64,000 bases of DNA from Lineus longissimus (taxonomy: Eukaryota > Nemertea > Pilidiophora > Heteronemertea > Lineidae): positions 4,898,001-4,962,000 of the forward strand of contig NC_088312.1 of the NCBI RefSeq assembly GCF_910592395.1, written 5' to 3'. The notes under the pieces are model-generated. The model was not told the DNA's origin. It ran no database searches and was given only the letters and a program-made list of their open reading frames with translations. The number at the start of each line of letters is the position of its first letter. Position 1 is the first letter of the stretch. The translations under genes and the position numbers were made by a program. Positions 1 to 61,586 of this stretch are shown one piece after another.

Positions 1-951
1 ATTGATTTATTATACATTGCTTTTGAAATTTTGCACGCGATTTAAAGTTGTGAACATCAGCTATAGTCGTGCTTAATGAGGTAAAGCCATTGTGCATGGA
101 CACAACTTACAATGTATTTGAATATCAGTCACGCTATACTGTTATAAACTGTTAAGTCATTCTTCAGTTATATTGTGAACAAATGAAACTGCTCGTATAT
201 GATAAAATAAAAACAACGAAAGTTTGCTACAACAATTTTATTAAATCATTCATGGTGAAAATATTATTTCTGCGTTATAAATCATAGTGCATATGTTTTC
301 ATCGATTTTTCTACAGTATATGGTTTGGCGATTCGAATCAATATACCAATTACGGGCCACCGGAAATTGACAACCAGACTCTCGGAAGTTCCTGGCGGTT
401 CAAAATGAAGGGATAAACCGATTTTAGATCGTTGAAAAGGACTTCATTCGCCCCTCAATTCCTCGACCACCCTCAAACGATTCCATTGAGTCTAAACTGT
501 CAATTTCCAGCGGACAGTAACCGGAAATGTTAGTACACTCTATCAAAAAGTCGGAAACTTCGATAGCCGCCACAAGAAAGAGTCGAGGCAAAAATCGGGA
601 ACATCTATTTTGCCATTCCGACGAAAAAGGAATGTACATACATACAAGCGCCAAAAATCTATATTTTTTTGTACAAAATGTTGAGCTTTATATATATCAT
701 TCGAAATATCTATGTTAGTATGGACGGAACGAAATACATGTATTAGTACAACATGCAACAGAAAACAAATGTACTATTATATAGATTATCTCTAATGTAT
801 ACTTGCAGAAAGGATGCCAAAATATCTAAATACATAGTGAAAAATTAATCGTACATAATCCTGCTGTATAATGTTCTCAAGGAACGGTTACAATGAAATG
901 AACCCAGTTATCAGGTCATAAAAAACCAAGACCACGCGCCTGTCAAAACGA
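1..951 (-). other. 3' flank / putative 3' UTR of the giant repeat gene
   Basis: AT-rich DNA without a convincing coding frame on either strand. It lies just downstream of the stop codon of the giant minus-strand gene, so part of it should be that gene's 3' UTR. A minus-strand AATAAA hexamer (tttatt on the plus strand) at 237-242 is a possible polyadenylation signal about 710 bases past the stop. I see no RNA gene or transposon here. Confidence 0.4.
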
Positions 952-15900: not shown

Positions 15901-18900
15901 GATATCTGCCGCCCTACTTGAAACCACTTCTTCGTCTGTCTTCTCGGTGGTGACCTTAATATCAGGTTCTTCTTCGTCTGTCTTCTTGATGGTGATGCCA
16001 ATTTCAGGTGTCACACATCGAACTGCTCCTGTCTTCTCAGTGATAACTTCATGTTCTGGTGTCTCAGTCGCTACTGCTTCATTGCCTGTCTTCTCGGTGG
16101 TGACCTCAATTTCAGGTGTCTCACATAGATCTGTCTCTTCTGTCTTCTCAGTGATAACTTCATGTTCTGGTGTTTCACTCGCTACTGCTTCATTCTCTGT
16201 CTTCTCGGTGGTGACCTCAATTTCAGGTGTCTCGCATAGAACTGTCTCTTCTGTCTTCTCAGTGATAACTTCATGTTCTGATGTTTCACTCACTACTGCT
16301 TCATTCTCTGTCTTCTCGGAGGTGACCTCAATTTCAGGTGTCTCGCATAGAACTGTCTCTTCTGTCTTCTCAGTGATAACTTCATGTTCTGGTGTTTCAC
16401 TCGTTACTGCTTCATTGCCTGTCTTCTGGGAGGTGACCTCAATTTCAGTTGTCTCACATAGAACTGTTTCTTCTGTCTTCTCAGTGATAACTTCATGTTC
16501 TGATGTTTCACTCACTACTGCTTCATTCTCTGTCTTCTCGGAGGTGACCTCAATTTCAGGTGACTCGCATAGAACTGTCTCTTCTGTCTTCTCAGTGATA
16601 ACTTCATGTTCTGGTGTTTCACTCGTTACTGCTTCATTGCCTGTCTTCTGGGAGGTGTCCTCAATTTCAGTTGTCTCACATAGAACTGTTTCTTCTGTCT
16701 TCTCAGTGATAACTTCATGTTCTGGTGTTTCACTCGCTACTGCTGCATTTCCTGTCTTCTCGGAGGTGACCTCACTTTCAGGTGTCTCGCATAGAACTGT
16801 CTCTTCTGTCTTCTCAGTGATAACTTCATGTTCTGATGTTTCACTCGCTACTGCTTCATTCTCTGTCTTCTCGGTGGTGACCTCAATTTCAGGTGTCTCG
16901 CATAGAACTGTCTCTTCTGTCTTCTCAGTGATAAGTTCATGTTCTGGTGTTTCACTCGTCACTGCTTCATTCTCTGTCTTCTCGGACGTGACCTCAATTT
17001 CAGGTGTCTCGCATAGAACTGTCTCTTCTGTCTTCTCAGTGATAAGTTCATGTTCTGGTGTTTCACTCGCTACTGCTTCATTTCCTGTCTTCTCGGTGGT
17101 GACCTCAATTTCAGGTGTCTCGCATAGAACTGTCTCTTCTGTCTTCTCAGTGATAACTTCATGTTCTGGTGTTTCACTCGTTACTGCTTCGTTCTCTGTC
17201 TTCTCAGAGGTGACCTCAATTTCAGGTGTCTCGCATAGAACTGTCTCTTCTGTCTTCTCGGTGATAAGTTCATGTTCTGGTGTTTCACTCGCTGCTGCTT
17301 CATTGCCTGTCTTCTCGGTGGTGACCTCAATTTCAGGTGTCTCACATCGAACTGTCTCTTCTGTCTTCTCAGTGATAAGTTCATGTTCTGGTGTTTCACT
17401 CGCTACTGCTTCATTGCCTGTCTTCTCGGTGGTGGCCTCAATTTCAGGTGTCTCGCATAGAACTGTCTCTTCTGTCTTCTCAGTGATAACTTCATGTTCT
17501 GGTGTTTCACTCGCTACTGCTTCATTCTCTGTTTTCTCGGTGGTGACCTCAATTTCAAGTGTCTCGCATGGAACTGTCTCTTCTGTCTTCTCAGTGATAA
17601 GTTCATGTTCTGGTGTTTCACTCGCTACTGCTTCATTTCCTGTCTTCTCGGTGGTGACCTCAATTTCAGGTGTCTCGCATAGAACTGTCTCTTCTGTCTT
17701 CTCAGTGATAACTTCATGTTCTGGTGTTTCACTCGCTACTGCTTCATTCTCTGTCTTCTCGGAGGTGACCTCAATTTCAGGTGTCTCGCATAGAACTGTC
17801 TCTTCTGTCTTCTCAGTGATAACTTCATGTTCTGGTGTTTCACTCGCTACTGCTTCATTCTCTGTTTTCTCGGAGGTGACCTCAATTTCAGGTGTCTCGC
17901 ATAGAACTGTCTCTTCTGTCTTCTCAGTGATAACTTCATGTTCTGGTGTTTCACTCGCTACTGCTTCATTCTCTGTCTTCTCGGAGGTGACCTCAATTTC
18001 AGGTGTCTCGCATAGAATTGTCTCTTCTGTCTTCTCAGTGATAACTTCATGTTCTGGTGTTTCACTCACTACTGCTTCATTCTCTGTTTTCTCGGTGGTG
18101 ACCTCAATTTCAGGTGTATCGCATAGAATTGTCTCTTCTGTCTTCTCAGTGATAACTTCATGTTCTGGTGTTTCACTCGTTACTGCTTCATTCTCTGTCT
18201 TCTCGGAGGTGACCTCAATTTCAGGTGTCTCGCATAGAACTGTCTCTTTTGTCTTCTCAGTGATAAGTTCATGTTTTGGTGTCTCACTCTCTACTGCTTC
18301 ATTGCCTGTCTTCTCGGTGGTGATCTGAGTTTCAGGTGTCTCACATAGAACTGCTTCTTCTGCCTTCTCAGTGATAACGTCATATTCTAGTGTCTCATTG
18401 GCTACGGCTTCTTTGTCTGTCTTCTCTGTTGTGACCTCAATTCCAGGTGTCTCGCATAGAACTGTCTCTTCTGTCTTCTCGGTGGTGACTTCAATTTCAG
18501 GTGTCTTACATAGAACTGCTGCTTCTGTCTTCTCAGCGATAACCTCACATGGTGTCTCACTGGCTACTGCATCTGTCTCTGTCTTCTCCGAGGTGTCCTC
18601 AATTTCAGTTGTCTCACATGTATTTGCTTCTTCTGTCTTCTCAGGGATAACTTCATGTTCTGGTGTTTCACTCGCTACTGCTTCATTGCCTGTCTTCGCG
18701 GTGGTGATCTGAGTTTCAGGTGTCTCGCATAGAACTGCTTCTTCTGCCTTCTCAGTGATAACGTCATATTCTAGTGTCTCACTGGCTACTGCTTCTTTGT
18801 CTGTCTTCTCTGTTGTGACCTCAATTCCAGGTTTCTCACATTCTGTTTCTTCTGTGGTGGCGTCAATTTCTTGCTCCTTCCTCAACTTTTTTGCTCTAGC

Positions 18901-20205
18901 CGTCGTTGTTACACTTGCTGACCTTTGACTCTGTCCATGCAGACCCGCTCTCTCAGTTGATCTGTGCCGCGACGTAGATCGGACTTCCTGTCTTCGCTCC
19001 TCTTCTGTCACCTTATGGACGTCTCTGATATCCTCAGTTGACTTTATATTAGTTACCTCCCTCTCTGTATCTGACAGTCTTTCCCTACTTTCTTCCCTTC
19101 TAACCTTCTTGATATTTTCTTTGGTTTTCTCGAGGCTAGTGAGGCTCGTCGTCTCAATTCCCGGGTGCCCTTCAGCAAGGTCATCATCTCGAAACTCCCT
19201 GGTAACTTTTTCGTCCTTCTGCGTTGTCCTGGATGCCTCTTTTGTTTCCTCTTTGGTAGTGACCTCGCTTGTTTCCTTGACCTCCCCTGTCAGCTGATCA
19301 TCCTCGCCTCCAGCTGTCTCCAGGTTAGATCTTGACTCGTCTGCTTTTCCTGAACCGTTGTCTACATCACCTGCATCTTGTCCAGCGTCTAACCCGACAT
19401 TGCATGTTCCGTCCATCTCCTGAGCCCCATGCCCTTCCTCTGTCGCTGACCCAGTTCTGTTCTCTTCCTTTCCTTCTAGTCCATTTCCAAGACGTCTGTC
19501 ATCAAATCCGTCCAATAACTTGTCAAACTCGTCCAGTATATTCTCATCCGTTGTTCCTGCTTCATTCATGTTTGCCATTGGACCTGCAGCAGTCCCGTTC
19601 ACTGTCCCATTCAAAGCTGGAGCAGCTCTGGTCTCAGAGTGAGCAGCATCCTGGACGGAGTTCCCAACGTGTTCAGATATGGCTTTCGAATTAGCATTCT
19701 CGACATCATGCCCATTTGTGGTAGGCGGGTTTCGAGCTGACGTCTGTGGAATGTTCTGTTGTTGCAATATGTCCTGTTGTTCATCATTACCACAGTCGTG
19801 GCCTCCAACACAGTTTTCATTTATGATGGCGTCCCTTTCGACAGCTTCATGCGAACGGTCGGCTGGCAGGCTGTTGCTTGCCCTCCTCTGAGTAGCTTGT
19901 TTTGTATCGTCACCATTCTGGTGTAAACCATTTTCAAATAACTCGCGTCTGCTCCTTACTAGCTTCTGTTCCTTCATTTTGACCAAATCGTCTGCTTCAG
20001 CTTCTGGAACTCTCTTTGGGCCATTATACCACAGATGGTCCTTCTCAGAGTTGACCTTCACGCCCTTGAAGACTCCCGCACCATCTCGAGTCGCCGCAAC
20101 ATTTGCTGTGATGTCACGATTGATCTTTGCGGAACCGTTGACATCATCTGCCTCCTTGTTCTTTACACTCCCCTCATTTCCATACATCGTCTGCCTTTCG
20201 GCCAT
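952..20205 (-). CDS. Giant acidic tandem-repeat protein, single 19.25 kb coding exon, unknown function
   Basis: An uninterrupted frame of 6,417 codons. The ATG at 20205 has a good context (AAGATGG) and an in-frame TAA eight codons upstream, so the start is well supported; the stop is TAG at 952. A minus-strand splice acceptor (TTTTTTACAG) ending at 20278 puts at least one non-coding exon upstream. The protein is dominated by Glu, Asp, Thr, Val, Ala and Lys and is almost free of aromatics, so it should be largely disordered. Order from the N-terminus: mixed, partly basic region (1 to about 570); 37-residue repeats (about 576-1400); 38-residue repeats (about 1595-1840); 11-residue repeats (about 1940-3190); a unique core (about 3250-3340); 10-residue repeats (about 3545-3660); 28-residue repeats (about 4110-4280); irregular Glu/Asp/Val-rich sequence; a basic Pro/Lys-rich C-terminus (last 250 residues). 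No signal peptide, membrane segment or known domain is visible. A structural or scaffold role is only a guess. Confidence 0.85.
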   Translation of the reverse strand: MAERQTMYGNEGSVKNKEADDVNGSAKINRDITANVAATRDGAGVFKGVKVNSEKDHLWYNGPKRVPEAEADDLVKMKEQKLVRSRRELFENGLHQNGDDTKQATQRRASNSLPADRSHEAVERDAIINENCVGGHDCGNDEQQDILQQQNIPQTSARNPPTTNGHDVENANSKAISEHVGNSVQDAAHSETRAAPALNGTVNGTAAGPMANMNEAGTTDENILDEFDKLLDGFDDRRLGNGLEGKEENRTGSATEEGHGAQEMDGTCNVGLDAGQDAGDVDNGSGKADESRSNLETAGGEDDQLTGEVKETSEVTTKEETKEASRTTQKDEKVTREFRDDDLAEGHPGIETTSLTSLEKTKENIKKVRREESRERLSDTEREVTNIKSTEDIRDVHKVTEEERRQEVRSTSRHRSTERAGLHGQSQRSASVTTTARAKKLRKEQEIDATTEETECEKPGIEVTTEKTDKEAVASETLEYDVITEKAEEAVLCETPETQITTAKTGNEAVASETPEHEVIPEKTEEANTCETTEIEDTSEKTETDAVASETPCEVIAEKTEAAVLCKTPEIEVTTEKTEETVLCETPGIEVTTEKTDKEAVANETLEYDVITEKAEEAVLCETPETQITTEKTGNEAVESETPKHELITEKTKETVLCETPEIEVTSEKTENEAVTSETPEHEVITEKTEETILCDTPEIEVTTEKTENEAVVSETPEHEVITEKTEETILCETPEIEVTSEKTENEAVASETPEHEVITEKTEETVLCETPEIEVTSEKTENEAVASETPEHEVITEKTEETVLCETPEIEVTSEKTENEAVASETPEHEVITEKTEETVLCETPEIEVTTEKTGNEAVASETPEHELITEKTEETVPCETLEIEVTTEKTENEAVASETPEHEVITEKTEETVLCETPEIEATTEKTGNEAVASETPEHELITEKTEETVRCETPEIEVTTEKTGNEAAASETPEHELITEKTEETVLCETPEIEVTSEKTENEAVTSETPEHEVITEKTEETVLCETPEIEVTTEKTGNEAVASETPEHELITEKTEETVLCETPEIEVTSEKTENEAVTSETPEHELITEKTEETVLCETPEIEVTTEKTENEAVASETSEHEVITEKTEETVLCETPESEVTSEKTGNAAVASETPEHEVITEKTEETVLCETTEIEDTSQKTGNEAVTSETPEHEVITEKTEETVLCESPEIEVTSEKTENEAVVSETSEHEVITEKTEETVLCETTEIEVTSQKTGNEAVTSETPEHEVITEKTEETVLCETPEIEVTSEKTENEAVVSETSEHEVITEKTEETVLCETPEIEVTTEKTENEAVASETPEHEVITEKTEETDLCETPEIEVTTEKTGNEAVATETPEHEVITEKTGAVRCVTPEIGITIKKTDEEEPDIKVTTEKTDEEVVSSRAADIVVTTEKTEEAVPTEAQEIKVKTEKSDEEAVPSETPEIGIIHQTTDKEVVPSKTPESVITTDETDKEEVPSETPEIEVTNEKTDEEAVSIESPAIVITTEKADDEIIPNETPEVNATTEKTDDEKVQSETTAVDVTTEKTVNAEVPSETSAIKVATAKTGEEAFPSETSAIEVTTEKTGIEAVPSDTAAIEVITENTGEEAVPSETPAIEVTTEKTGKEAVPTETAAIEVTTENTGEEAVPSETPAIEVTTEKTGKEAVPTETAAIEITTENTGEEAVPSETPAIEVTTEKTGKEAVPTETAAIEVTTENTGEEAVPSETPAIEVTTEKTGIEAVPTETAAIEVTTEKTGEEAVPRETPAIEVTTEKTGEEAFPTETAATEVTTEGTGEEAVTRETPAIEVTTENIGKEAVPTETKETEDVTENSEETVLHEASVIKDGTNKKVEEADPGEAPGIEITAEETEELEVISNDVPEVEVSKVPSVDAKTENTIIKDKPKTEEINEDKPGVGETEGVESIIDHKPEAEETITDNKSDAAETITDCKPVAAETITGKKPEYVENVTDDKPEAVETVSDDKSEAVETLIDDNSETIETLTDHRTEDVGRSTDDKPVAVETVSDDKSEAVETVADDKPEAVETAAYDKPEVVETVTDEKSVAVESTTDNKLVAVETLTDDNPEPVETPINDQPEADDSTVDVVMSTGEKPDVVEPLTDDKPNDAETINDNKSEDVATAIDDKPESVEIISDDKTGAVVFVSDDKPETVKIITDDRPEAVEIGIDDKPEAEENITDDKPEAVENLIDDKLEAVVTITADNEEAAEIIADDKAKAVETVIDDKPEAVETLTDDKLEAVETITADDEEAAKIVADDKAKAVETVIDDKPEAVETLTDDKLEAVVTITADDEEDAEIVADDKAKAVETVIDDKPEAVETLTDDKLEVVVTNTADNEEAAKIVADDKAKAVETVIDDKPEAVETLTDDKLEAVETITADDEEAAKILADDKAKAVETVIDDKPEAIETLTDDKLEAVVTITADDEEDAEIVADDKAKAVETVIDDKPEAVETLTDDKLEAVVTNTADNEEAAKIVADDKAKAVETVIDDKPEAVETLTDDKLEAVETLTDDKPEAVETITDDTTEDALWFIDDKPEVVEPLTDDKANDVETINHNKSEDVETVTGDKTDAVKTFTDDEPDVIETITDNKPEDVNTATDDKPEAVETVADDNAETVETIANDDPGAAETITYGKSEAVKAVANEQPEGEETPANDKPEAVDTITDNKPKAAEIPNDEKPVAAETVTDYEIDAIETITNDKPHATKTVTDENPEAVENITDDKPETVETIADGKPEALDSTASYDKQEVVKTMTDDKTEAADSVTVDKPEDVETLTDDNPEPMETPIEDHPEAGETVNDDKPEALQTSIDDKPETVEIIAYDKPEPLDTKTDDNNETVEINRCHRPEGLKPLIDDKTRAVVTFTDDKIKAGVILTNEKSGAPETIIDDTTEIVETIADGTPEAVEFITEDKPGALKTIINDKQETAVTITDRESNSMVTISDAKPEAAEIAADDKKEAVETLIDDKTEAVVPSNDATSEGVTHDETETVDTITDDKTEVVETIAADKPGASEIIVDKETGDVVISTDHKTEAVETIADEKAEVVAAITDDKTEAVETIADDKPETSESIADEVTVAGVIITADKTEAEEILADDRTQAVNTITDDKTEAVATITEDKPEAVGPIPDCMPEPMKTFSDYKPVAATIDDDKKTEVKTEVESAVADKHEVEAVVVEASSPRQIMILEAATEKLTVESTVGNEYGQDLKASLPQLSENKVYDTDIYHNIEDGVLQVQCVVKVVDGHELPEDLTFERWSQRGKVSMRDVDCQTNISLGVDDCDVVVRDPQTMKELVYSGFRKDQSVPDVEVEAALVEEAVKEETPECDTIEDESQEIESSQSKTAEMEYVQDETPEKEDKQDETTEKEAIKDESTMVETLEDESPEIEAVQYETPEIKAAQCEETEIKVVQYETSEIETAEVETLASETVQDDAREEEADQSKATEIDAVQDKIPEAEADQGETIEIDAVQDEKQEAEIQDEMPEIDGVQDEMPDAAANQGETIEIDAVQDEIPEAEAIQGDIPEAGVVQGDIAEAGIVQGDEAEAVVVQGDIPEAGVVQGDIAEAVVVQGDIPEAGVVQGDIPEAGVVQGDIAEAVVVQGDIPEAGVVQGDIPDAGLVQGEATELDAVQGEITEVEAEVETTQDDVSQDEVDMYVNADKQTRDQVHPGNTEECIIKAKEAESEVVTNDSNNSNEGRAIAETKKVRKVSTTDETKEVTVITSKGERKETISVGDEVREICTVSETEETKESSKVVRREETTKSTELGETVTETTSVSSIEKTSDNMRKSMTEESMEKISDEEDLTEITRTRSTEELSENSRIVEEEISREVSRVTSSVSSLIAEGDFETQETFVSVDGEEFASDEDTSESSEDAMPVEEKALGADTPDIGIVNEKKPRADGDAVKENTTKCDANAVTEVASAVEKGEVTEDKYDEVTEVTPEIENDLVAEGLNEVRKDEVAEVENNAVTEVEGDLVTEEVSEVEKDDVTKVESDTVPAVENEEVTEEATDNEVVNVDITKDEKGEVTEVEKIVTTDVHNQAVTDGVAEEEEDTPTQVEKKAITAVEKEEITEMATEADKETDTRDVAEADNDKVNDVEKDEVTEGDKETDTGGVAEAENDMVTDVEKDEVTEGNKERDTGDVPEAENDKVTDVEKDEVTEGNKETDTGDVAEADNDKVTDLEKDEVTEGNKERDTRDVAEADNVKVTDVENDEVTEGDKETDTGDVAEAENDKVTDVEKDEVTDTEAEQDAITKDLTEVEEEIMTEVENEEVTDDDTAAEKVAVFKGVNNAEVNEVIEVEKDAVPEACADSEKEAVSDDVTEGEKNGVTEARQDEVNEVENAVTEKDEVTNTEKDVDVPQTEQDAVTEDIDKGVKDEVTEVEKEASVANTTKEAVTGEMNEIKKEAETEDDTDVENAIIGEVEKDEVTKVEVPIDEVKEVVPEIEKTAVVTDVKNDAVAEDVTGVEDEVATEADKDAVTEVVDEDGKDEGTKVNNYTVDEVENGAVAKNVAEVETELFTEADKDAVKEERNDVIINEALITERMLRNEEAGAVIDWDKRASNLLGDNNTAVIPDAGDANTQDNSLLENKNTSVEANGEGSDELSSVGELHYEEGEEDTGRNREAKGNDLNEGEIDVEEPEGIQGSQDGGFGNDDDLTSGRTELDASGSELAIAMDETMATVKMLVEAATRAAMIEIEDEDDEAFIIDDMGESTTDSALESCSLGSYGVSSAERRTRDVMTDRDNDEGNPEYGEFNMPEEIPEGQERDGAIAPENKTFIDRSEISSSLVAEAGSASSADSVSTSHGFTEEGKESVEETHVRGGTLIPMVVVTNHATDDKDALYTESTIGNEDADTEIRNIEDEIKVTDDAGEVDKVKDIEIADDVDNVKGTDYAESVVKVTGVEDADKVDNVKDTENADDVDMDLEGEHKTDKVKDTEDTDKFEKVKDTEDADYTVEDTIDADDHDKILVSEDAGSHFRDTKVEDTDGQNVELNATDIIEGNQMKSCPGDDVDHTGPPEMKTMLEPDWNNDNVTENEITVDAIILDHEASELIDKYVDVEGENNENVSMEFIDPCSSTIEITNTRATFSAGTVRLNGPEYNNQAEDSDANENIVSGAPGGRTTSPVVMGGHKDSSVVEGSLSLSSSDESFGNAGDGVRVQKAVDMTPENEENNDIETRTTINMSAEHDKVDLDGEDVKEITKDSDIIPPVDDEVKDTNIENTGQDTDQDVPIDIGRNSAVLAGDAQVDNAEVTVITNSEADTSQESDSGLETSAPGDKDDRPVSGDTTMEENNIDSGLEGTLNEGGVVSDETYTKDGNDKTVLEANIEQTCVEKDGSNELNEQSDNATDTVENTTPQPEKSTLSNSVVELTQDAIHQAEDETAAVVGAEVVGDGKKEGENDVNSEQTGENETLAEGETVDETSQEVINNADSNDAGDIVAETGDNAEVTLIKEEKEDLSKVKDAEEIEVKATEDTPESEEGESLPILLEHESAGSVAAVGTGPAGDSQDGDELENEVENDKVTEGLESADIAADVEKTNESDVETERDDGMDTASKKSDAAESDNGTTDNDENPPAVEPEIEQTTAQDEEGSVDTGNVNEDVKREDSLAADPGNDLEQTVDDDNAETAIVADDISPADDPEIDQNITLEEGGSVQGVEKDGFSAETLENDEEQTRITVEVDEQEKEVGHENVIDVGPVPNIAEAEIEDVADVVVDQSEDVESQAVLGEDQFDDAVKEEGQSDDADVEIDTANGVVVAENKSVAEDESVTVAQNDVDAASDAAAADNNSLAGDETVTFDQDEAEAEDVNNAEDIVEFEQEDDTGMKDDNAEDQTSPPGSGVEHDGDNGPIAQDAVDHQGAEGSNEDNEVKVDMIADDNETEKEAVVELDPVESEKEFGVDGAEVGNRSHDTRDDEIERDVEFKTAEEVDGGEGDDGDNLGEDVALAAAEDEINDAEHFNVVARTGPDDGVDDRASPADSIVVQSENGDHVILEDKDSGVENDKVSKGDDTSRQESVAEGDVDTPESRDSALEVDEKTTVKETVETQEITESTHDVTESKEDPFGDWDDFDSKRKEEEAITQDEDDDAETNGVIIGNDVVQDNGDIRENIEAHNDGYESDFEDKAEEELNDDKIPPPTDRTLSRNGTPLSRATTPAASRSGTPLKRSPTPTGDDSRPNSSLNLRGAHYHVLPPIGDRERTMDSVNSLNAWQTTDEELTPRDERVADSPSPQNKKALPPLGSEPKQKAKKAAKDSNSKKTGREDRKAGSLPKPIKSSAYVEKGRLHVTLQGEANVMDFGKGKKKNPTPVPLDVNILIMKEKKSKKSPMFGQPKRKPPPRLAPVSIAEKDVVNLRAQGPQFNTKLENSEKRVNPVWRAKKLKTSNR
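7370..7875 (-). repeat. 84-bp in-frame tandem array (28-residue units)
   Basis: Six copies at exact 84-base spacing: the word gacttcatc recurs at 7372, 7456, 7540, 7624, 7708 and 7792. Each unit reads roughly TDVEKDEVTEGNKETDTGDV plus EAEND/EADND. Copies differ by a few substitutions and no frame-breaking indels. Confidence 0.9.
9235..9560 (-). repeat. 30-bp in-frame tandem array (10-residue units)
   Basis: About ten near-identical 30-base units encoding GDIPEAGVVQ or the variant GDIAEAVVVQ, partly alternating. Flanking units down to about 9,850 are more diverged (EITEVEAEV, ETIEIDAVQDE). Unlike the other arrays this block is Gly/Val/Ile-rich rather than Thr/Lys-rich. Confidence 0.9.
10190..10450 (-). 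other. Unique, non-repetitive core segment of the giant protein
   Basis: Residues about 3250-3340, close to the midpoint of the protein. This is the only stretch inside the repeat-rich body with ordinary composition: it contains Trp, Phe, Tyr, Cys and His, and reads in part YHNIEDGVLQVQCVVKVVDG and FERWSQRGKVSMRDVDCQTN. The alternation of hydrophobic and polar residues suggests a small folded domain or binding segment. I cannot assign it to a family. It would be the best query for finding homologues, because the repeats give uninformative hits. Confidence 0.55.
10640..14390 (-). repeat. 33-bp in-frame repeat region (11-residue DDKxEAVETxT units)
   Basis: Roughly 110 consecutive 11-residue units of the type DDKPEAVETLT, highly variable at the ends of the block (for example DNKSEDVETVT, DDNPEPVETPI) and homogenised in the centre (12.5-13.5 kb). 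Nearly all substitutions keep the Asp-Asp-Lys / Glu-Ala-Val pattern. Isolated single-codon length changes occur, but no frameshift. Confidence 0.85.
12540..13500 (-). repeat. 132-bp higher-order array inside the 33-bp repeat region
   Basis: Seven copies of a 44-residue (4 x 11) higher-order unit: the word gcttttgcc occurs at 12632, 12764, 12896, 13028, 13160, 13292 and 13424, exactly 132 bases apart. The four 11-mers are DDKLEAVETIT, ADDEEAAKIVA, DDKAKAVETVI and DDKPEAVETLT. Sharing of variants (for example EEDAEIVA versus EEAAKIVA, ADNEE versus ADDEE) among non-adjacent copies suggests gene conversion or unequal exchange. Confidence 0.9.
14690..15430 (-). repeat. 114-bp in-frame tandem array (38-residue units)
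   Basis: Units of 38 residues made of two 19-mers, KEAVPTETAAIEVTTENTG and EEAVPSETPAIEVTTEKTG. The word cctcaattgctggtg recurs at 14931, 15045, 15159 and 15273. More diverged 19-mers flank the core on both sides, up to about 15,900. This block is clearly related to the 37-residue array but lacks its cysteine. Confidence 0.9.
16000..18480 (-). repeat. 111-bp in-frame tandem array (37-residue, cysteine-bearing units)
   Basis: The word atgttctgg, or a one- or two-base variant, recurs at 16051 and then every 111 bases to 18271: 21 consecutive units with no length change over 2.2 kb. Each unit is a 19-mer (SETPEHEVITEKTEETVLC) plus an 18-mer (ETPEIEVTSEKTENEAVA). Almost every unit has one cysteine at the same position, so cysteines fall every 37 residues. 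More degenerate units continue to about 18,840. Confidence 0.92.
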
Positions 20206-20277
20206 CTTTGCTTCAGGAATGGAGTTTTATTCAAAAAGGATCGATTCTGGGTTGGGGCGTATCACGATTAAATCATC
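20206..20277 (-). other. 5' UTR part of the giant gene's coding exon
   Basis: Between the acceptor (AG at 20279-20278 on the minus strand, preceded by a pyrimidine tract) and the ATG at 20205. It contains the in-frame TAA that fixes the start. The upstream non-coding exon(s) must lie at higher coordinates. Confidence 0.6.
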
Positions 20278-41506: not shown

Positions 41507-44448
41507 TCACGTTCCAAAAGGTGTCACTACGGCATCCTCATTGACCAAGAAATGGTAGAGAAACGTTGCCTTCTTTTTCTCGAGGATTTGTATATTGGTG
41601 GCTCTTTTGTTTGCAACACTAGGATTGTCTCGTTTGTCAGTAGGTGGCGCTCGCAACATCACAGCACTGAACAGTGACGCTGAAAATACAAGAATCACAT
41701 TATAAGATAATGCTTGTACACAATTTAAGATTGGTTCTAACGTCACCAATTTCATAAACAGTATCAACTTTCAAGGACTCAGGCATATGAAATTGGGTTG
41801 ACATTAAGAGGACATTTGGATGTGTTTGAATTGACATCTGACTATGAATTACAAGCACCATCTGTGGTTTCATTGACCTGGCTAGCGTTTCTTCAATATA
41901 CTCATGACATTTGGGAGTGAAAGTGGACTGCAGCTTACCTAAAAACTTTGGTTCCAGATTGTTGTATTGGTTGAATTCTAACAATTTCCTTAGGAATGCA
42001 CAGATATAGTTGAAGGTGTTTCTATGGCATGTTGGAAGCATGGAAACAAGCTGAAACATGACAGAAGAATATGATAATAACCCTTTAAATGAGATAGATT
42101 TATTTAAAGCCAAGTATGTAATAGTTTTTGGTTGCGGGAACAAAAATTGTTACTTTGTGAAATGCTCAAAGCAGAAGAAATCACATTCAAAAGACATGTC
42201 GATAGAGTCACAAGGCATCAAATATGGGGGGTCTGGTCTGCTATCCCATGTATGGGCTTGCATCGGAGTTACACTGTACATGTTTAGTGAATGTGGCAAG
42301 AACATTTTCCCTTACCTGTTTGGATGCAATAAAGCTATGAGAGTTATCTAAACATCTCTGATACAGAGAATAGACGATAACCGGCTCGGGTAGAGCTTCG
42401 ATGAAGATGAGCAGACTCTCAGATACAGAATGAATGCCACCAGCTTGGTCAATGGTCAAGGTCAACAAAGATGATGCAATAGTGTTTTTTCATGTTGGAA
42501 TCACCTTACCAGGGTACTAGCAATATAATGTAACAGCATGAGTGGAAAATCTACTTGAAGGGATTTAGCTATGAGAGTTATCACCAACTTTTAACAAAGT
42601 GAAAAACAATGTGAAACTTTTAGGTATTTTACAAGGATACGGATGTCCTCAGGCACCCCAGTGTCTAAGCTGTCTCTAATCTGTTGTATCTCAGAGTGTA
42701 GGCCCGGTTGCTGGAAGAGGTCTTCCTGTGACATGCCATAGTTGTAGAGATGGTCGACAAGCCGCCAAATCTCCTTGGGAATGTCCAGGGGTTGATCGTG
42801 ATCTGAACTCGCAGGTTCACTCGTGGGGGTGTAGTGAGACTGGAAAATGATAAAGTGTTATTAAGTCATTTAAGAAATTCACAACTGACTTATATGCAGT
42901 TAGGGGACTGTTAGAGGAGATTCCTTATGGCAACTTGGAGTTACCTGGCTCCAGCCCATACATAGCCTCCCTTTAAAGATGTAGAAAAGAGGTTTTACTC
43001 ACAAGGTCAATGAGTTGGGCTGTAGGCACATCTCTGATCACTCCATACATGTGAACCAAGGCCTCAAGTGACGAACCAAAGCAACTTGGCAAGAAGTTAC
43101 CAGAAACAGAAACCTGGTGATCGTGTCAAGGAGTAAATACTTCGCGATGTGATTGAGATAGCAGCACAGACTAGTGATACCTTAACATCAATAGGCTGTG
43201 ATCAATGCAGAGCGTATTTATGCATGACGTTTTATGCTTGAAATGATTTGACTCTATCAAAGTAAGTAAAGAGAATGCTGTTTTGAACTTTATAGACTGT
43301 TCAAATTCATGAGAAATCAGTAATTCAAAGGTTTCAAGTCTGATGAAAGGATACGAAAAAGTCTTTTCCTCCATCCAAGTGGAGGACTAAAATGTCTTCG
43401 ATTTTATCATCCCCGGCATTCAGCTTCGGAGCAGTGTCCTTGTTCACGTAGACTTCAAACTCTACTTCACAACTTTCGCCTGAAGCAGACAGATGATGAG
43501 AAGGTTAAAACATTTAATAGCTGCTGCAGTCCATTGGCTCGGACTCTCAGTGCACAGTCTGGAGGTCTTTGAGTTGAACCCCAGTCTGCCTTGTGGTTCT
43601 CGGCAGGTTTCTGTGTCGAACTTGGCTCCACCCAGGTGTATAAATATGCTCTGGTTAATAATTAGTATTGTCTGTTCATCAGAGGTCTTGGATGGACAGG
43701 GGGTTGAAGTGTATAGTCTACCGGAGTTGATATCAGACTCTAGGCCGAGTCAAGTAAAAGTGACTAAACTGGCCCTCAAACTTTATAAAATACTGTGCAC
43801 TAACAGTCTCAAAGCGCTTTAGAAATTTATTCCCCAGTTTAAACTGGCCTTACCTGGCATGATGAACCTCTTGGGTGGTCTGATGAGAAGCCATGGTTTA
43901 CAGTAAGAGTCATCATCCAGCTTGTTGATAAACTCAAACTGGACTGGCACCTGCCCTGTGTTTGCTATTGTTATATGCTGGCACTGCGGCTCGATAAACA
44001 TCACATCTTTGAAGTGTAACTTGAAAGGAAGTCAACAGATTTTCGAATATTGAAGAAACAATTGACCAAGATTAAGAAAATGGTGACTATCACGTTTTGG
44101 TACATGGAAATATTATGTACCAATCATACCGTCATCCGTGTCTGTCCATAACCTGTTGGAAAAGTATGTCGGTACCACTGGTTTCACCATGTTGCTGCTG
44201 TTTATGACACTGAGGCTTTGCATACAAAATTACCGACTTCTTCTACAGCATGCAGAGAAACTACCACCAAATTCTATCAACATCAGTCTCTTACATTGCA
44301 TAGCCAAGACATTCAGAAGCAGAATTATTTTGCTTACCTCTACTCGGTCCAATGAGACTTGTGGAAGGAACTCGTTTTCTAACCGATCTAGTTTCTTCAT
44401 CACATCCTCGTACACTCGCTTGTACTTTGCAGTGTCAATCACCTTGGC
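41507..44448 (-). other. ASH and RhoGAP-like exons of OCRL/INPP5B (exons 15-22)
   Basis: The ASH domain (for example [37 protein letters not shown]) is followed by a RhoGAP fold. The position of the catalytic arginine finger is Gln (DLFQQPG), as in vertebrate OCRL, so it is a Rac/Cdc42-binding module without GAP activity. The surface used by F&H-motif adaptors in vertebrates lies in this unit. A LIDL clathrin-box-like motif ends exon 18. Confidence 0.88.
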
Positions 44449-47400
44449 CTACGAGTAAACATATGGAGATTTATTACAACTTGAACAGTGCTACGCACTT
44501 GTGACGTAACAATCATGTGTATAGGACCTGGAGCTCAGACAAGAGCATTGTGCAGAAGAAACATGACATCAATTTTTAGGTGGGTTACTTGTGTGCAAGA
44601 ACATTTCAAGCTTAACTGGTGTTCACAATCAGTGCTAACCATGGGATATAAAACATCTGCTTAGTAGTACGATAACAACAGCCAAATCAACCATACTGCA
44701 ACATACTACAGTAGAACCTCTTTATTAAGGACACCCTCGGGACTGACAAGTGCTGTCCTCAATAGAGAGGTGTCCTGATTAGAGAGATTAAATTGAATGG
44801 AAACAACCAATTTGGGACCAAATCTAGTGTCCTTAATAGAGAGGTTGTCCTTAATAGAGAGGTGTCCGCTAAGGGAGGGTCCACTGTATGTGAATTCGGA
44901 ATTGTTACATGGCCGCATGGGGTGATTAACTTACATAAACATTAAATACAGCACTGACAGGCTTGTGGTCACTTATTCTAAGCACGTGATGACTTCTGTA
45001 GGCAACCTGGTCAATTCCATCTCCTTTCCATAAAACACGATCGCACCACGCTGGAGCTCGACATTTCTCACTGAAACAGAAAATAAAGTGCGATTGTAAA
45101 TGTGGCATAAATTGTGACTTCAGAAATGAAAAGACTGAAAGTAATATTGACTTATAGCACAGCAGGAACTTGGACTTTGATGTTAATCATGACACGAGTT
45201 TATGCACATCAGGGTGAATTCTCTGAAGCTTCTAACAATTTTCATAAATGAATATTTCTATGAAGATTAAACTGTGTAGGAAAGTGCAAATACACATCTG
45301 TAATCAATAAATTACCTGGTGTCCCATTTATCTGTTCCAGGGTCGTATTTATAAGTAGGAATGAATTTAATGTCTCCTTCCTTGTAACCTAAAAACACTT
45401 TTTTGGCGTTTATTTGCCGGAACAGTTGATCGTATTTTAGAATTGTCTCAAAGTCCTGCGATTTACACAAATTTTTCACTGTCTCTGCGTCGAGTTCACT
45501 AAGTCTATAGTTCAGATCACCCAGCCAGAATATCATGCTGAAAAGAGCAGAAATGTTAAAAAAATCATACAGTTTCATACATTTTCCAGGATATGCAGGA
45601 CTCTTTAACTTAAAGTGTGATTCATGGGTCACAGAGAGTGAGAGATAAGAGCCACTCGACCCGATGAGTGCAATATCCTCCTCTCCTCAACATCTCATAC
45701 ATTGACCCACATTCACACAATCATTGATGAAAGTCAATAGTATTTAGTGCACCACTGTGATTACAATGAGGCAAGCGACAGAAAGATGCCTTGGGACTAG
45801 ACAGATAAAATGTTTCCCAGATGAGGAAAACAAACAAAGAGAAAGCAGAGAAGATGAACTCTGAACACTGTTGAATACAGCAATACTGAACTGGTCTAAG
45901 TCTACAAGGCCACTCCTTCCATCTATCAACCAATTACTCTACGTCAACAGGGAAGACAGCAAATATTATCGAAGGCACCAGTGATATAAATCGCCCGTTT
46001 TCAAAGCGACCAACTTTTACTTACTCATGTTCAACAATTGACAGCGGTGGATCAAACTTGGCAAAACGCAATCGACTATTGATGTCCCGGAAATCTTGAT
46101 TTCTTCGTTCGTACTCTTCCACATGGGCGGCAAGATGTGAAGATATAAAACACACGGTGGAGTTGTAGATACTGAATCGTACAGCCACACCTCCTTTGTT
46201 ACCCTGAAAATGATTTCAGTCAATTCAAATTATCATCAACCTACACGTATTTGCCACCGCCTGGATCCCAATCTTGGCTTTGGACAAGTTTCAGTGTAAA
46301 TCATGGAGGAAGACAAGATTGGAAAGCTTCTTATTTTAGACCAACCAAGTTTAAATCCTGCCCTTCTTGCTTCCTCTCATCACGAACAGGAAAAGATTGG
46401 GTTTGTAGAAAAAAGGACTTCACAGGCATTTTTGAAAATAACAGCTGCATGACTTACCATGACTCCCATGATTCCAGTGCCGACATATGCCGCATCTATA
46501 TCATTGATGTGTGCGACTAAGTCATCTTTGATGAACACGACCAACATGATACCAACCAGACGGATCAAGCGCACCTGCAATAGGGCATTCAATTGATTAA
46601 CATTTTGAGGCGGATGGTTGTTTTAAGTGCAGAAAACAGTTTTGTCCGACAATGGTTTCAGTGGAAAGCTTAGATTAAAAGAAAAACAACGCAAGTCTAA
46701 AACTATACACACCTTTCTATATTTAGCCTCAGGATGCAACGCACTGCACACTTGTTTAAACCAGTCATCTTGCCGATTGGAGTCGTTGAAGATGAACGCT
46801 TCTTTGCTGAGATCTAACTCTTGGAATCCGATGGCGTATATATCTGGTGGTTCCTCATCGTATGATAACCAAGGTTTGATTGAGACGGACGCAGGCTGTC
46901 CGTTGACATTCCATGTCCCACAGAAAACCCTAGATGAGGAAATTGAAAATTTCTGTGACGTGAAGTTTTACTGAAAACAATATTTAGGAGCATGTTTGGC
47001 TACAGTAGCATCCATCTCATTTCTTATATATATAAAGAAGAGACATTTATCACAATTTGACCTCTCTCAAATACCCAAATAAGCAGAGGACAATCAAGGC
47101 ATGTTACTTCATACGTACTTGAGTTGTTTTTTATGTGTGAACTCCTCGTCCCTGTTGCTCATGTGGACCTGTATATAGACATCTCTGGCAGATCCGACTG
47201 GTTTTGTTGCCACACCGAAGTGTTGCTTGCTAACTGGAAGGTCATTGAGGTCATCTAAACTTCTGTATAAACGAAGAGAAGGACTCAATGAACAATAGCA
47301 CAATCAAATACTGATGTAACCTACAATATTGGAATGTTACAAGGGGAGCCATTTTTTAACAAACATACTGTAACAAAGGGAAATCAGTGATAAAAGCTAA

Positions 47401-55731: not shown

Positions 55732-57852
55732 TTACATGGTAATGTTAACTGGCACTTTGCCTGGGATCAAGCAGCTATACGAGTTTCTATTCTCGTTCTG
55801 TTTATCGAGGAAGTCCTCGAGGTCTAACATACGGCGCTGGAAGTTTTCGATCGCGTCCTTGTTGCTTTTTCCAGTGAAGAATGGGTTCTCATAATCCTTC
55901 ATTCTGGGCTGCAAATGAGAGAAGCATTACCGTATATTGTACACATAACACTTGTGGGCCAGGGATCTAAGCCATCTAAGGAACCTATGGAGAAGTAACT
56001 GCTGTGGTTGGGGTTAATGTTTCATGCCACCGTGTTCATGCAAGACCCAATACTGAGAACGCCAATTGTGTAGCCAATGTCAGGCCTTATTGTGTAAGAA
56101 ATCATCTATTCCGTTTTTAGCTTTCAGGAACCTGGAATAGCAACCAATTAGTGTTACTTGCCTGTTTGATGTTCTTCTGCGTGTGGGACAACACATATGA
56201 CACCCTATCAACTGCCACACTGTTTTTCGGAAGAGCCTTGATGATAGTCTCCATCGTCACTCTCCCCTTGGCGATGGGTGGATGAACCATCATCGCGGAA
56301 GGACTGTTCGGAATGAACACGTCAAATTCGGCTCTCGGGTAGTTCAAGGCAGCATAGCCAAAAGAACAGTTGTAGATGACCATTGTTGCAAACTGTGCAA
56401 GTTGTCCAAATACGTTGAACGTGGCAGGGACCCCATGCCCTTCACCCCTGTTCCACACTGGCAGCCCATTCACATGCAAGTCTTTCACCATGTTCTGGAG
56501 CTCTACGTCAGCTCGGACTGCTCCGTCCGTCGCATAGAACCGCCCCAAGAACGAGGTTACCCATTTGTGGATGAGCCCGAAGGTCGCCAATGAGTCATGA
56601 CGCCAGTGGTAGTTCGGGAATTTCTCCAACATCTTTCTTTCCCTGAGGTCGAAACCTGGAACCAGGCTCCACATATTGAAGGTCTTGAAGCACTTCTTCA
56701 TGTACGCTGCGGCACCTGCTGATCCAAGAGACATCGTACGATCTGCCAAACCGTCTTCACCAAACAGGTTGTCACGTTCAGTAACGCTGATCGAGACGGC
56801 ATCTTTCAGACTTGGCTTGAGTAATTTGTACAGCGGGTGAAGGGCGTACAAGTTGCGTTCCACGGCAACAGCGATTGCCTCTAGCGTAAAGACCGTCTTG
56901 GTGAGCATGGTGTAGATCTGCTGGTGCTGTGTTGCAGCATTCTTCACCCACATCTTCGCGAATAGCCAGTCCTCTGTGCTGTCCTGTGGTGTGAATATCG
57001 GTATGCTGTCGCATTTTTCTTGGCTGAGTTTGATTGCGATGGGCACTAAGTCATCTTCTTCATTAAGATAGAGGAGTGCCATGGGCGAGGCCAGGTAGCG
57101 CTTGGTACCTTTCTTGCAGTATCGAGGAATGCCAGTGAAGTTAGGGTAGTTCACAAGGTATAGGTTTCCTCTCTGGAAAGAATGATAATGCCATAGATAA
57201 TCAAAATGTGTAGAATAACAGCTAATTGGCAAACCTAGGTAAAAGGCGAAAACATAAAGACACAGACAAAACTCCTGTCTACGTGGTGTTCGAAATAAAT
57301 TCTTAGTATTTAAGGGGAATATCAATTCGACGATTTAGATTCAGAGAGATGCCTAATGCTCAATTCGTACCAGTATTTCTTCCTCTATGGACAATCCCCT
57401 TAGAAGTGACTTGGCCACCAACTCATCAGTGACAGGGAAGTTGTCCGGGAGACATTCGGTGATCCTCTCAATGATCGTTGGGTCAGCTCCCACCAAGAGC
57501 TGGCGACCAAAGTCTGCATCCATGAAAAATTTATCAAACTGGTTCTTGTATGCATCAGCCATCGCAGGGTTGCAATCCTGGGCAAAGGTCAGATAGTCCC
57601 CCAGGGACTCGAAGCTTCGGAAGCGACTGAAAGGTTTACTGGCCAGCAGCTTGGCAGTGCGTGAGCTCAGCCCTTCAAGGAGTGTCGCTTCATCCTGCTT
57701 CAATATCTCTGGCACGTCAGAAGGCCCTTTGCAGACTACTCCTCCGTGGACCATTGAATGCAATAGCCAACCCATATCCTCGCGCCGTTCACTTATTTCG
57801 TATTTGCGTAGCTGGCTAAGGAATGGGGTCTGCTTGGCTTGGCTGATTGCAA
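55732..57852 (-). other. Lipoxygenase-domain exons with missing iron ligands
   Basis: Lipoxygenases bind non-haem iron through two His in the H-x4-H-x4-H helix, a third His, an Asn (or similar) and the C-terminal Ile carboxylate. Here the helix reads QHQQIYTMLTKTVF. Aligned without gaps from WLFAKMWV onwards, the ligand positions are Gln969 and Met974, and the third conserved His position is Val979. The segment normally C-Q-H-A-A-V-N is FGYAALN, so His becomes Tyr1158 while Asn1162 is kept. The protein ends VPVNITM, Met in place of Ile. The fold-defining segments between these sites are well conserved. The alignment was made by eye against the remembered coral sequence. Confidence 0.75.
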
Positions 57853-60800
57853 CTGAAAGTAAAATGGAGAGGTGAGGTCAGCGAAAACGATGATACTGGA
57901 GGAATCCGTACCTCGTGAGACTACTCTGAAATTCACTATGGAGTCTTTCACTCAACCCCCACCGCTTGATTTTTTAACCGATATTTGAGGAAAGTTTCCG
58001 AACTTCACTTACCTGAGCAATCAGGAATAATAGCCTCCTCAGTGATCCAGTTGAAGTACGGGAAATACGACGAAGACTGCTGAGCAGTGTTGAGCACCTG
58101 AACAAAGTCCAACTTCATGTTGGCCAGCGATGCCGTGACATTGTACCACTTCCTTTTTAGGTTGATTTGGATTGCCAGTGGAGCTCCGACGTTCTCTGCT
58201 GAAAAGTGGTAGGTGTCGAGAGTCCCTCTCTCAAACTCGTTGGTGAAGGTTCGTCCGAGTTTCTTCGGCGTCGTTTTGCCAGATTGCCCTGAATTGAAAC
58301 ACATATACTTAAGACATAACTATAGTACTGAATTCGCTTGTGCTCGGTCATTCTACATCCCGGGCCTGTGGTCTCTTAAACACTTTTAAAAAGTTGAAAA
58401 AGGCCTTTCGATAATTAAATGTGACATCTGACAGGACCGTTTACCTAAGAGAACGGATGTGGACTTTAAAATGGCGCACTTGGCAACGTCTACAGAAAGT
58501 TGTGCTTTTTAAGCAGACCTCGCTTACCGTAGAGAGTGATGAAAACATCGGCATCGCTTCCAGCACCGTCAACATCGGCCATCTTGACCACAATCACATA
58601 AACAACAGGTTCGTCAGCCTTTGGTGGATGTTTAGCATTGTATTTATTAGAAGCTTCGCAGAATTGGCTCAGAGCAGATGGATAGGACTTGAAGTCAACA
58701 ATGGAAATCGGGCTAGGAAGCCAAACACTCTCCGGCAGGTTTTTGACGTCGTAGTCTACCTGGGATGCGGCCAGGTGAGTGAGGGGTGTAGTGATGACTA
58801 CATATCCGATGTTCAGCCAGGGAAGGTCCCATTCGATCGCAGTGTTGTAGAGATCCTCCATTTCTGTGTCTAGGGAAGTACTGACTTGGACCTGGAGGTT
58901 GTACCTTACTTCATCCCTCATGACGTCATACTTGAATTTTTTCCGGAGATAGTTAACATTCTTGACGTTTCCTGGTGCTCGCCAGGTTTTCCTGTAAGGT
59001 GGAAATGAAAAGGATGTACAGTCAGAAACATAACTTAGGTGAAGGATCTACACATGTATTTCAGTATTATGATAATGAAATAGATCAGACGTACCACAAC
59101 TGAAGAAAACGCTAGTGTGTCATGAGGACATGTTAATTTACCTCTTGGTGTCGCACATGAAAAATGGCTATCGATATAGTCTGAAACCACCAAGTACATT
59201 TCACCAGGTTGCATTTCATCACAAAGCAGATTGCAGTAATTGAGACATCGATATAACATGATACTTAGTTTTATTTTTTGCGTTTATCATTCGGTTCAGT
59301 CTGCCAAATTTCATGAACATACCATGGTTCACTTTGGTCCTTTTTCGTCAGCCTTGATGTTTCTCCATCCTCTTTCTCTGGAACGTATCTAAATCTGATC
59401 AAGCTGACCTCATTTTCCTCTGACATCATCTTATACGTAGCGTGACAGTAGTAGGTCAACTTGCCGTAACTTTCTGGGCAGCGCCTCAAAGCCGAAACCA
59501 AACTGGAGAAACTGTTACAAGAAAGGAAATTTGAGAAGTTGTAATATCCACGAAACAGTCAAGTCCAGATGCTTTCTTTGGACTTCTTGCTCGTTCTCGT
59601 TCCCGGCCGTCAGTTATAGCCATACAATACAGGGTCACTATAGGGATACCCTAAATTACCATCAGTGCCTACATGTAACTAGAACCCCGGATAGACCCTG
59701 GCCATTCTAAGATTGATTTAACTACTCGCCCCGTCTGCAGAATATCAGTAATTAAAGTTACTCACTTGGCTGGTGAACTCATGGCCCATGCTTTCAGTCG
59801 ACCTTCACCAACGGCCTCAACAAACTGTCCATACGTCTCCAAGTTGTAAAACATGTTCTGATTTCCCGTCTGCATCACCAAATCAAGCGTTTCATTATCA
59901 TCGGGGTCTTGAAGTTTAAGAAAAGCCATCCTGATGTCAGCGGAAGCATCATCAGTCTCCAGAAGATTCCCGTGGCAAACGTTGACCCTGAACATCCGAC
60001 CTTTGCGGAAGAAGTTGTTTTTGGGAAGGTCAGGGCAGTCAAGGATCTCAGCGAAACCAAAACCTCCAGTGCGGTGCATGTCACCATCTTCTGGCGCCTT
60101 TGCAGCTGCTTGGGCCCGCAGCACAAAGAGGGATTCGGTCTTGTTCAGGGCTTGGTTCAGTCTGTTGAAGAAGCCAGCTGCCACCGATGGTGCTGATGTA
60201 TCTGGTTGCTAAAAATGAAAGGAATATGCCAGATAAGACAAGGCCGAAAAAGATTACGCACGGCCCTACCGGTATTACCTATGCATCCTGACCGAACCTC
60301 GTTGCGTTGACATGTTTGGACAATTGGGAAGCGCCACGCCCTTAATTTTTTCGGGTTTGGCAGTTCGTGTACATGCTACTGCCGATCCTCCCCCCAAAAA
60401 TTTGGCCTTACGAAGAGCTAGCAACGACAAAGTAAGAAGTATGTACATGTAAATTGATTTCATTGAAGATAATTACAAAGTAATGCATGTAGTTGATTTT
60501 GGGACAGTTACGATTATGACACGCCTACCTCAAATTGAGTCTCCTTTTTCTCCTCCAATTCGTCACTGCCAAAGAGGTCAGCGAAGAATTCTTCAGCATG
60601 ATTCTTCCAGTCCGACAACGTCCCAGTAACATTGTCACCGCCTTCAGACGCGGTTTCATCCGCGTCTCCTGCTGCTTTCTTGTCATCGTCATCATCTTTC
60701 TCAACAGATTCGGAAAACTTTTCTTTGACATTGTCAAAACCCTCCTTCAAATTATCAGCAGCGTCCGATAATGCTTCCTTGGCGTCATCAACTTTGTCAG

Positions 60801-61586
60801 ATATTGCCTCCTTGGCATCACCAGCGGCATCCGACACCTTTTCTTTGACATCATCAAATCCGTCCCTAACACTTTCTGCTGCGTCTGATAATGCTTCCTT
60901 TGCGTCATCAACTTTGTCAGATATTGCCTCCTTGGCATCACCAGCGGCATCTGAAACATTCTCTTTGGCGCTTTCATAGCTCTCCTTGATATTCTCGGCA
61001 GCGTCTGATACGGCTTCTTTCATGTCATCGACGCGGTCACCAATCCAATCAGTGAAGTTATCGAAGGTGGATTCTGCTTCGGCCTCTTTTGGGGTTTCCT
61101 GTACAGTTGAGGCCATCTCTTCAATAGGTTTTTCAGGGCTTTCAGTCCTCAAACTTAAACATAAGATGAAAAAATTTTTTAATTTCCGTCCATACAAAGA
61201 GACATGCGAGCGCTAATGTTGCAAATGGACCTTCATAGTTGGGGATACAGCATTTCTGGAGATACATGTCAGCAATAGGTTTGAGGTTCATCTCGAAAAT
61301 AAACTGAGGTGTCATAGCTAGATCTACCAGAGGCCTTCTAAGGGTTAATACCATGCCTTGATAGGATATTAAATAGAAAATGTTGTTGTTCTTACTCAAT
61401 GATGGGGTCAGTACCCAGTCCTAAGTAGTCAATGTTATCATCACTTTGCAAAACTGTTTGGTCATTCTCAGTGGCCATCTTATCCTGAATTGTGAATCTC
61501 CCAAACTCAGGGTTCACTTCAAAATGACCAGGTTTACTCCCATGGGGTTGCAGATCAGCAACTGGGCTGGGTTTGTTATCAGACAT
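55732..61586 (-). CDS. LEA-like repeats + catalase-related AOS-like domain + PLAT + lipoxygenase fusion; predicted pseudoenzyme (9 exons)
   Basis: Coding exons from the start: 61586-61396, 61147-60529, 60208-59766, 59502-59323, 58991-58528, 58288-58013, 57852-57371, 57172-56162, 55908-55732. Phases agree throughout; 3,843 nt, 1,280 residues. The ATG (MSDNKPSP) is the first in its exon. After a 270-residue N-terminal extension, the order is catalase-like (about 280-600), PLAT (605-725), lipoxygenase (730-1280), as in octocoral allene oxide synthase-lipoxygenase. Clear family marks include NLVSALRRCPESYGKLTYY, NYLRKKF, DNFPVTDELVAKSL and AIENFQRRMLDLED. In corals the two halves turn arachidonate into 8R-HPETE and then an allene oxide. 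Here the metal-ligand positions are changed in both halves (see the domain entries), so enzymatic activity is unlikely. The last intron uses a GC donor. The open frame and regular splicing argue against a pseudogene. Confidence 0.85.
58013..58700 (-). other. PLAT (lipoxygenase/polycystin beta-barrel) domain
   Basis: From YVIVVKMADVDGAGSDADVF at the end of exon 5 through exon 6 (FTNEFERGTLDTYHFSAENV, IQINLKRKWYN). The Gly-(Ser/Thr)-Asp-Ala start and the Leu-x-x-x-x-x-Phe-x-x-Gly-x-x-Asp pattern are typical. PLAT domains mediate Ca-dependent membrane contact in lipoxygenases. Asp and Glu residues are frequent in the loops, but I cannot tell whether Ca binding is kept. Confidence 0.75.
58528..60208 (-). 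other. Catalase-related (allene-oxide-synthase-like) domain exons with altered haem-site residues
   Basis: Exons 3-5 follow the coral AOS order closely: TGGFGFAEILDCPDLP, NNFFRKGRMFR, ADIRMAFLKLQDPDD, LDLVMQTGNQNMFYN, NLVSALRRCPESYGKL, NYLRKKF. The distal His position four residues before TGG is Asp313 (a His sits two residues later). The distal Asn of 'VMNTG' is Gln383. Where the proximal Arg-x-x-x-Tyr haem ligand should be, the sequence reads SYPSALSQFCEASNKY (about 580-595), with no Arg-x3-Tyr. Haem binding therefore looks unlikely. Alignment by eye. Confidence 0.65.
60600..61060 (-). repeat. LEA/apolipoprotein-like 11-mer helical repeats, including a 120-bp direct duplication
   Basis: Residues about 96-207 consist of 11-residue amphipathic units such as DAAGDAKEAIS and DKVDDAKEALS. 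A 40-residue (11+11+11+7) block is duplicated almost exactly: DNA 60718-60837 and 60838-60957 match at 120-base spacing, with a partial copy beyond. Such 11-mers occur in group 3 LEA proteins, apolipoproteins and synucleins and usually form helices on lipid surfaces. I know of no lipoxygenase with this extension. Confidence 0.8.

Follow-up and report, generated by a model that had tools for sequence, protein, structure and literature searches.

The 64,000-nt stretch of Lineus longissimus contig NC_088312.1 analyzed here (the window, to which all positions refer) carries on its minus strand, from 61116 to 55732, a gene resembling the coral fusion of a catalase-related allene oxide synthase (AOS) with a lipoxygenase (LOX). 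We think it probable that this gene encodes a non-catalytic descendant of the fusion enzyme, cAOS-LOX, whose folded domains have been kept for lipid or partner binding. The indirect signs are best read as those of a maintained pseudoenzyme, since the LOX fold is predicted with confidence, no stop interrupts the 1209 codons, the introns are GT-AG or GC-AG and the third-position G+C content (GC) of the LOX part, 0.62, stands against 0.35-0.43 in the introns. Concerning the catalytic sites, three of the five iron ligands are, judging from the alignments, certainly lost, and loss of the heme site is probable.

Gene model and domain architecture

Splice sites define eight exons which, joined from the first in-frame ATG in exon 1, read through 1209 codons in one open frame. 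The preliminary description, which had also found the frame open across its exons, covered only 55732-57852, the last three exons (6-8) of the gene. Exon 1 (60529..61116 from the ATG, aa 1-196) encodes acidic helical 11-mer repeats. The catalase-related AOS-like domain begins in exon 2 (59766..60208, aa 197-344), continues through exon 3 (59323..59511, aa 344-407) and ends in exon 4 (58528..58991, aa 407-562), where the PLAT domain begins that exon 5 (58013..58288, aa 562-654) carries on. The LOX catalytic domain begins in exon 6 (57371..57852, aa 654-814, containing Met687), has its core and former iron site in exon 7 (56162..57172, aa 815-1151) and finishes in exon 8 (55732..55908, aa 1152-1209 plus stop), the last residue being Met. 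Six of the seven introns are GT-AG and the last, after exon 7, is GC-AG with donor GCAAGT. Examined for the marks of a pseudogene, the eight-exon model shows no stop, no frameshift and no broken splice site. We also considered a second LOX copy in the window and rejected it, as all matches to LOX or AOS with E 1 or better fall within the gene.

Residues 169-1205 of 1209 are collinear with the AOS-LOX of the coral Plexaura homomalla (PDB 3dy5, 1u5u and 2fnq; match to 3dy5 with E 7.6e-142 in HMMER, 31% identity), and two Pfam domains score above cut-off, PLAT at 538-645 (48.6 bits vs 23) and LOX (PF00305) at 756-1204. Hence the layout of the fusion appears to be present, with catalase-related AOS, PLAT and LOX in one frame and in the same order as in coral, and structure comparison places the end of the coral chain where the Lineus protein ends. 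The differences are the loss of all three His iron ligands, of the distal Asn137 and of the proximal Arg349-x3-Tyr353 motif (see below), and an extra helical extension of ~168 residues at the N terminus.

Two L. longissimus NCBI proteins, both named AOS-LOX-like, match the locus in protein searches. P0005 (655 aa) corresponds to model residues 1-653 and then runs on for two residues, GK, encoded in intron 5. P0006 (523 aa) is identical to residues 687-1209, an agreement that may rest on the same genome assembly. Taken literally, these models would mean two separate genes or isoforms, one for a protein of 655 aa with helices, AOS-like and PLAT domains that stops within intron 5, the other for a LOX protein of 523 aa, and no full-length model is found among the protein-search matches, though the length ranges would admit one. 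However, the 160-bp intron 5 keeps the frame and has a GT donor and an AG acceptor, homology to the coral protein runs through the exon 5-6 junction and upstream of Met687, and the Met687 start of P0006 falls in the middle of exon 6. Frame, splice sites and homology thus favour a single protein, and we regard two genes as unlikely. The end of P0005, two codons into intron 5 (58005-58013), could reflect a real truncated isoform lacking the LOX domain, possibly made alongside the full-length product.

The confident LOX fold comes from the P0006 model, compared through VIA-align lists that were read for fold only; its residues 1-38 are mostly below a predicted local distance difference test (pLDDT) score of 50. 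The P0005 model is poor (mean pLDDT 39.6), and no site geometry was read from it.

The last part of exon 1 (about aa 169-190) aligns with the N terminus of coral AOS-LOX (43% over 21 residues, E 0.64 when searched alone), therefore about the first 168 residues, made of acidic amphipathic 11-residue repeats, constitute an extension. Their periodicity is shared with the helices of apolipoprotein A1/A4/E and apolipophorin-III (PF01442, PF07464), to which there is a weak profile match; the Lineus helices stay below the curated cut-offs of these families, are strongly acidic and have no signal peptide apparent by eye. At the DNA level exon 1 contains a tandem repeat (60710..61032) with a period of 120 bases, or 40 aa, and the overlapping stretches 60830-61032 and 60710-60912 are 79% identical. 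The ratio of nonsynonymous to synonymous divergence (dN/dS) between copies is about 0.2 (0.08/0.44 over 41 codons; 0.15/0.75 over 65 overlapping codons), a value that may be affected by gene conversion and has no bearing on the LOX part.

The iron and heme sites

The LOX domain was aligned with coral AOS-LOX and then with a set of 14 LOX references, nine of them animal, comprising 12 of the 16 non-Lineus database matches and two coral proteins. P0002, P0004, P0010 and P0013 were left out as presumed related copies, and P0014-P0018 are of unstated organism, the bacterial label being our own. It should be noted that the set was chosen by similarity to the Lineus protein and that ligand changes also occur in two of its members.

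Of the H-x4-H-x4-H motif, it is the second and third His that bind the iron in the coral and soybean enzymes, in agreement with the coral numbers given in the preliminary description. PMC11593649 agrees with this for mammalian LOX and describes the C-terminal ligand as a carboxylate. In the Lineus protein the two ligand positions of the motif are occupied by Met903 (56906..56908; coral H757) and Val908 (56891..56893; coral H762), and the third His ligand, coral H943, is replaced by Tyr1087 (56354..56356). The fourth ligand position (coral N947), which is Asn, His or Ser in functional LOXs, is retained as Asn1091 (56342..56344). The references have His in 14/14, 12/14 and 13/14 cases at columns 903, 908 and 1087, respectively, and Asn in 14/14 at 1091. 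Gln898 (56921..56923) stands at the first, conserved but non-ligand, His of the motif, which is not His in 3 of the 14 references either. At the C terminus, alignment and structure comparison place Met1209 (55735..55737) where the 12 references with a known end have Ile (10), Leu (1) or Val (1).

All these replacements, and the kept Asn, had been read correctly in the preliminary description (there as Gln969, Met974, Val979, Tyr1158, Asn1162, i.e. our numbers plus 71, and a C-terminal Met). Its count of four ligands lost out of five has to be lowered, as the first His of the motif is not a ligand and the ligand at the C terminus is a carboxylate, so that the change from Ile to Met need not remove it. 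Three ligands, the His residues at the positions of Met903, Val908 and Tyr1087, are by these alignments certainly gone. In contrast to animal LOXs (5-LOX, 15-LOX-2, 12-LOX, coral 11R-LOX), the Lineus protein is without His at all three positions. No other His lies in register to take their place in the alignment, as His897 adjoins the non-ligand Gln898. Sequencing error is an unlikely cause, Met903 being three nucleotide changes away from any His codon and Val908 two. Because the three His are replaced, we infer with high confidence that the LOX chemistry is dead, i.e. that the domain cannot hold catalytic iron and makes no lipid hydroperoxide.

Two of the reference set show ligand changes of their own. 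The 669-aa 5-LOX-like protein P0007 of the shark Pristiophorus japonicus ends in Leu and has Gln in place of the second His ligand and Tyr in place of the third; it is perhaps another inactive LOX, sharing its Tyr with the Lineus protein. P0001, from cod, has Asn at the second His ligand position.

For the AOS-like half we compared the distal heme residues of coral cAOS, Thr66, His67 and Asn137, and the proximal ones, Tyr353 and Arg349. The comparison used the coral protein and three bacterial relatives, L001-L003 (a first genome scan gave none, a second two loci and a plasmid search one), in alignments A1, A4, A5, A7 and A8, of which four contain coral and one of these has five rows. A seven-row alignment was dropped, its LOX domains having been misaligned onto the heme domain. 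Gln309 (59870..59872) occupies the Asn137 column in all four alignments with coral, the other four rows of the five-row alignment having Asn. The Thr66-His67 columns fall on Gln229-Ala230 (A1), on Thr220-Glu221 (A4 and A5, made from trimmed pieces and with Thr220 at the domain start), on gaps (A7) or on Gly238-Asp239 (HMMER). The likeliest, though alignment-dependent, counterpart of this segment is Gly238-Asp239-Met240-His241 (60074..60085), whose His241 lines up in A8 with the distal His of two of the bacterial relatives. There is no Thr-His pair within residues 201-270, and the pair thus seems absent, Thr66 and His67 singly not being lost beyond doubt. On the proximal side, Leu514 to Cys518 (58658..58672) lies at coral Arg349-x3-Tyr353 in the five-row alignment, other alignments placing the motif differently, so that the Tyr353 column holds Ser515 (A1), Glu519 (A4), Cys518 (A7) or Tyr510 (A5). 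The motif itself is missing, no Arg being found within residues 480-540; the bacterial row L003 likewise lacks the proximal Tyr. When the AOS-like domain is searched alone, its HMMER match to coral spans G70 to S344, just inside both heme-contacting segments. Taken together, loss of the heme site is probable, and the heme half probably cannot use lipid hydroperoxide either.

In L003 (positions 655-3933), from a Bacteroidia metagenome-assembled genome, the catalase-related AOS-like gene is preceded at 12 bases, on the same strand and unfused, by a LOX-like gene of 724 aa that scores 25.6 bits in Pfam vs a cut-off of 23.6. The AOS-like protein of L003 shares 38% identity with coral, more than the 30% of the Lineus domain.

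The altered sites could also belong to a new enzyme, in which Met, Tyr, Asn and the C-terminal carboxylate hold another metal and Cys518 acts as a thiolate heme ligand. The retention of Asn1091 and of the carboxylate, the Cys at the Tyr353 column and the pairing of His241 with the distal His of the two bacterial relatives in one alignment are in its favour, but Arg349 has no counterpart, the remaining alignments put Ser515, Glu519 or Tyr510 in place of the Cys, and nothing in register makes up for the lost His ligands. We judge a new enzyme very unlikely, more so than the other alternatives weighed here.

Maintenance or decay of the gene

A gene recently released from selection offers a further alternative. 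The enzyme would have become dispensable, the site residues would have drifted, and no frame-breaking mutation would have been fixed yet. Neutral simulations (100 runs per setting, substitutions only, starting from the present sequence) bear on it. At 26% change, the share of invariant positions that have changed (see below) and a stand-in for the unknown divergence, the whole frame would accumulate a mean of 16.5 stops and the LOX part 8.2, and 0/100 runs stay open in each. At 10% change, open runs number 0/100 for the whole frame and 2/100 for the LOX part. Moreover, all splice sites are GT-AG or GC-AG, the C-terminal length is exact, Met903 is three changes away from a His codon, and codon third positions in the LOX part are unlike introns, with a GC of 0.616 (0.555 for residues 201-654).

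Several observations nonetheless weigh against the preferred reading. At 5% change, 1/100 whole-frame runs and 14/100 LOX-part runs remain open, hence constraint on the LOX part may have been lost very recently. In a tree, the end branch of the LOX part measures 2.18, compared with 0.15-0.67 for nine other animal LOXs, at least three times as long as any of them, the placement of so long a row being marked as unsure by the tree program. Only 64 of 87 positions invariant among the nine are kept, with losses spread over the domain (columns gapped in any compared row were dropped); each of the nine keeps 87 of the 89-97 positions invariant among the other eight, the figure of 87 being fixed by construction. 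Given the fast branch and the invariant positions lost, constraint on the LOX part appears relaxed or altered, and the preliminary statement that the rest of the domain is well conserved was too strong. Over the first 200 codons the third-position GC is lower, at 0.44, and thus close to the intron values. Searches of the protein database for orthologues returned as close matches only the two Lineus half-models, which leaves purifying selection on the LOX domain to be judged from indirect signs; the other 16 matches of two of these searches, at 25-35% identity, comprise vertebrate LOXs together with five LOX-like sequences from unstated organisms. The coral fusion itself did not surface, though it was a row of one query, and therefore little can be concluded from finding neither orthologues nor paralogues there. 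The NCBI annotation splits the locus in two, so that the full-length transcript is putative. The profile match of the extension to PF01442 reaches 41.4 bits against a curated cut-off of 90. Coral W413 and W449, the membrane-inserting Trp of the PLAT domain, correspond to Thr575 and Thr613. Finally, each alignment places the distal heme segment differently.

The fast branch, the scattered losses, the split annotation, the runs still open at 5% and the fact that both catalytic sites are affected would all suit incipient decay, which we nevertheless hold to be improbable given the simulations at larger change and the intact gene structure. The maintained pseudoenzyme already proposed in the preliminary description is partly supported, by fold, open frame, splice sites and third-position GC; that account missed the fusion partner, overcounted the ligands and overstated conservation. 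As to function, which may be lipid binding, scaffolding or regulation, we consider it most likely that the long acidic amphipathic helix together with PLAT would anchor the protein on a partner or a lipid surface, and that the LOX fold would bind and hold a polyunsaturated lipid without oxidising it, or scaffold other proteins. The protein would then be kept because its folded domains still bind lipid or partners.

Neighbouring genes and implications for the fusion family

Elsewhere in the window, the minus strand carries at 955-20226 one uninterrupted reading frame of 6,424 codons (6,417 counted from its first Met), whose translation has much Glu, Thr, Asp and Val and looks repetitive by eye; similarity of the exon 1 repeat to it (E 0.35 and 0.65) was taken as low-complexity noise. 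Also on the minus strand, 42244-46967 holds inositol 5-phosphatase-type exons, with Exo_endo_phos2 scoring above its cut-off, and a partial RhoGAP match that falls short of its own, in the manner of OCRL/INPP5B.

Catalase-related AOS fusions are named for soft corals and a cyanobacterium in the relevant part of PMC8124189. The open-access literature searched, which leaves subscription journals mostly outside its coverage, yielded no report of a nemertean lipoxygenase (the one paper matched is on a polychaete), no AOS-LOX among the 15 papers listed, of 4,655, for spiralian groups, no nemertean in the titles of 6 papers with AOS-LOX as a word, and nothing on an inactive lipoxygenase under the four phrases used. 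Like pseudoenzymes in general, the Lineus protein combines a kept predicted fold and an open frame with lost catalytic residues; it differs in that the loss appears to have disabled a two-step fusion enzyme in both its halves. More tentatively, and with somewhat less than even confidence, we suggest that an oxylipin enzyme that both made and used a hydroperoxide has been turned, in both halves, into a metal-free lipid-binding protein that gained an amphipathic helical arm and was retained by a ribbon worm, which would place the fusion in Bilateria and perhaps before the coral-bilaterian split.

If true, the protein would offer a natural iron-free LOX fold in which lipid binding and allostery of the LOX and PLAT domains could be studied apart from oxidation, and would document a fusion enzyme that lost its two activities together. 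It would also extend the cAOS-LOX fusion beyond corals to a spiralian, a point relevant to how old the fusion is.
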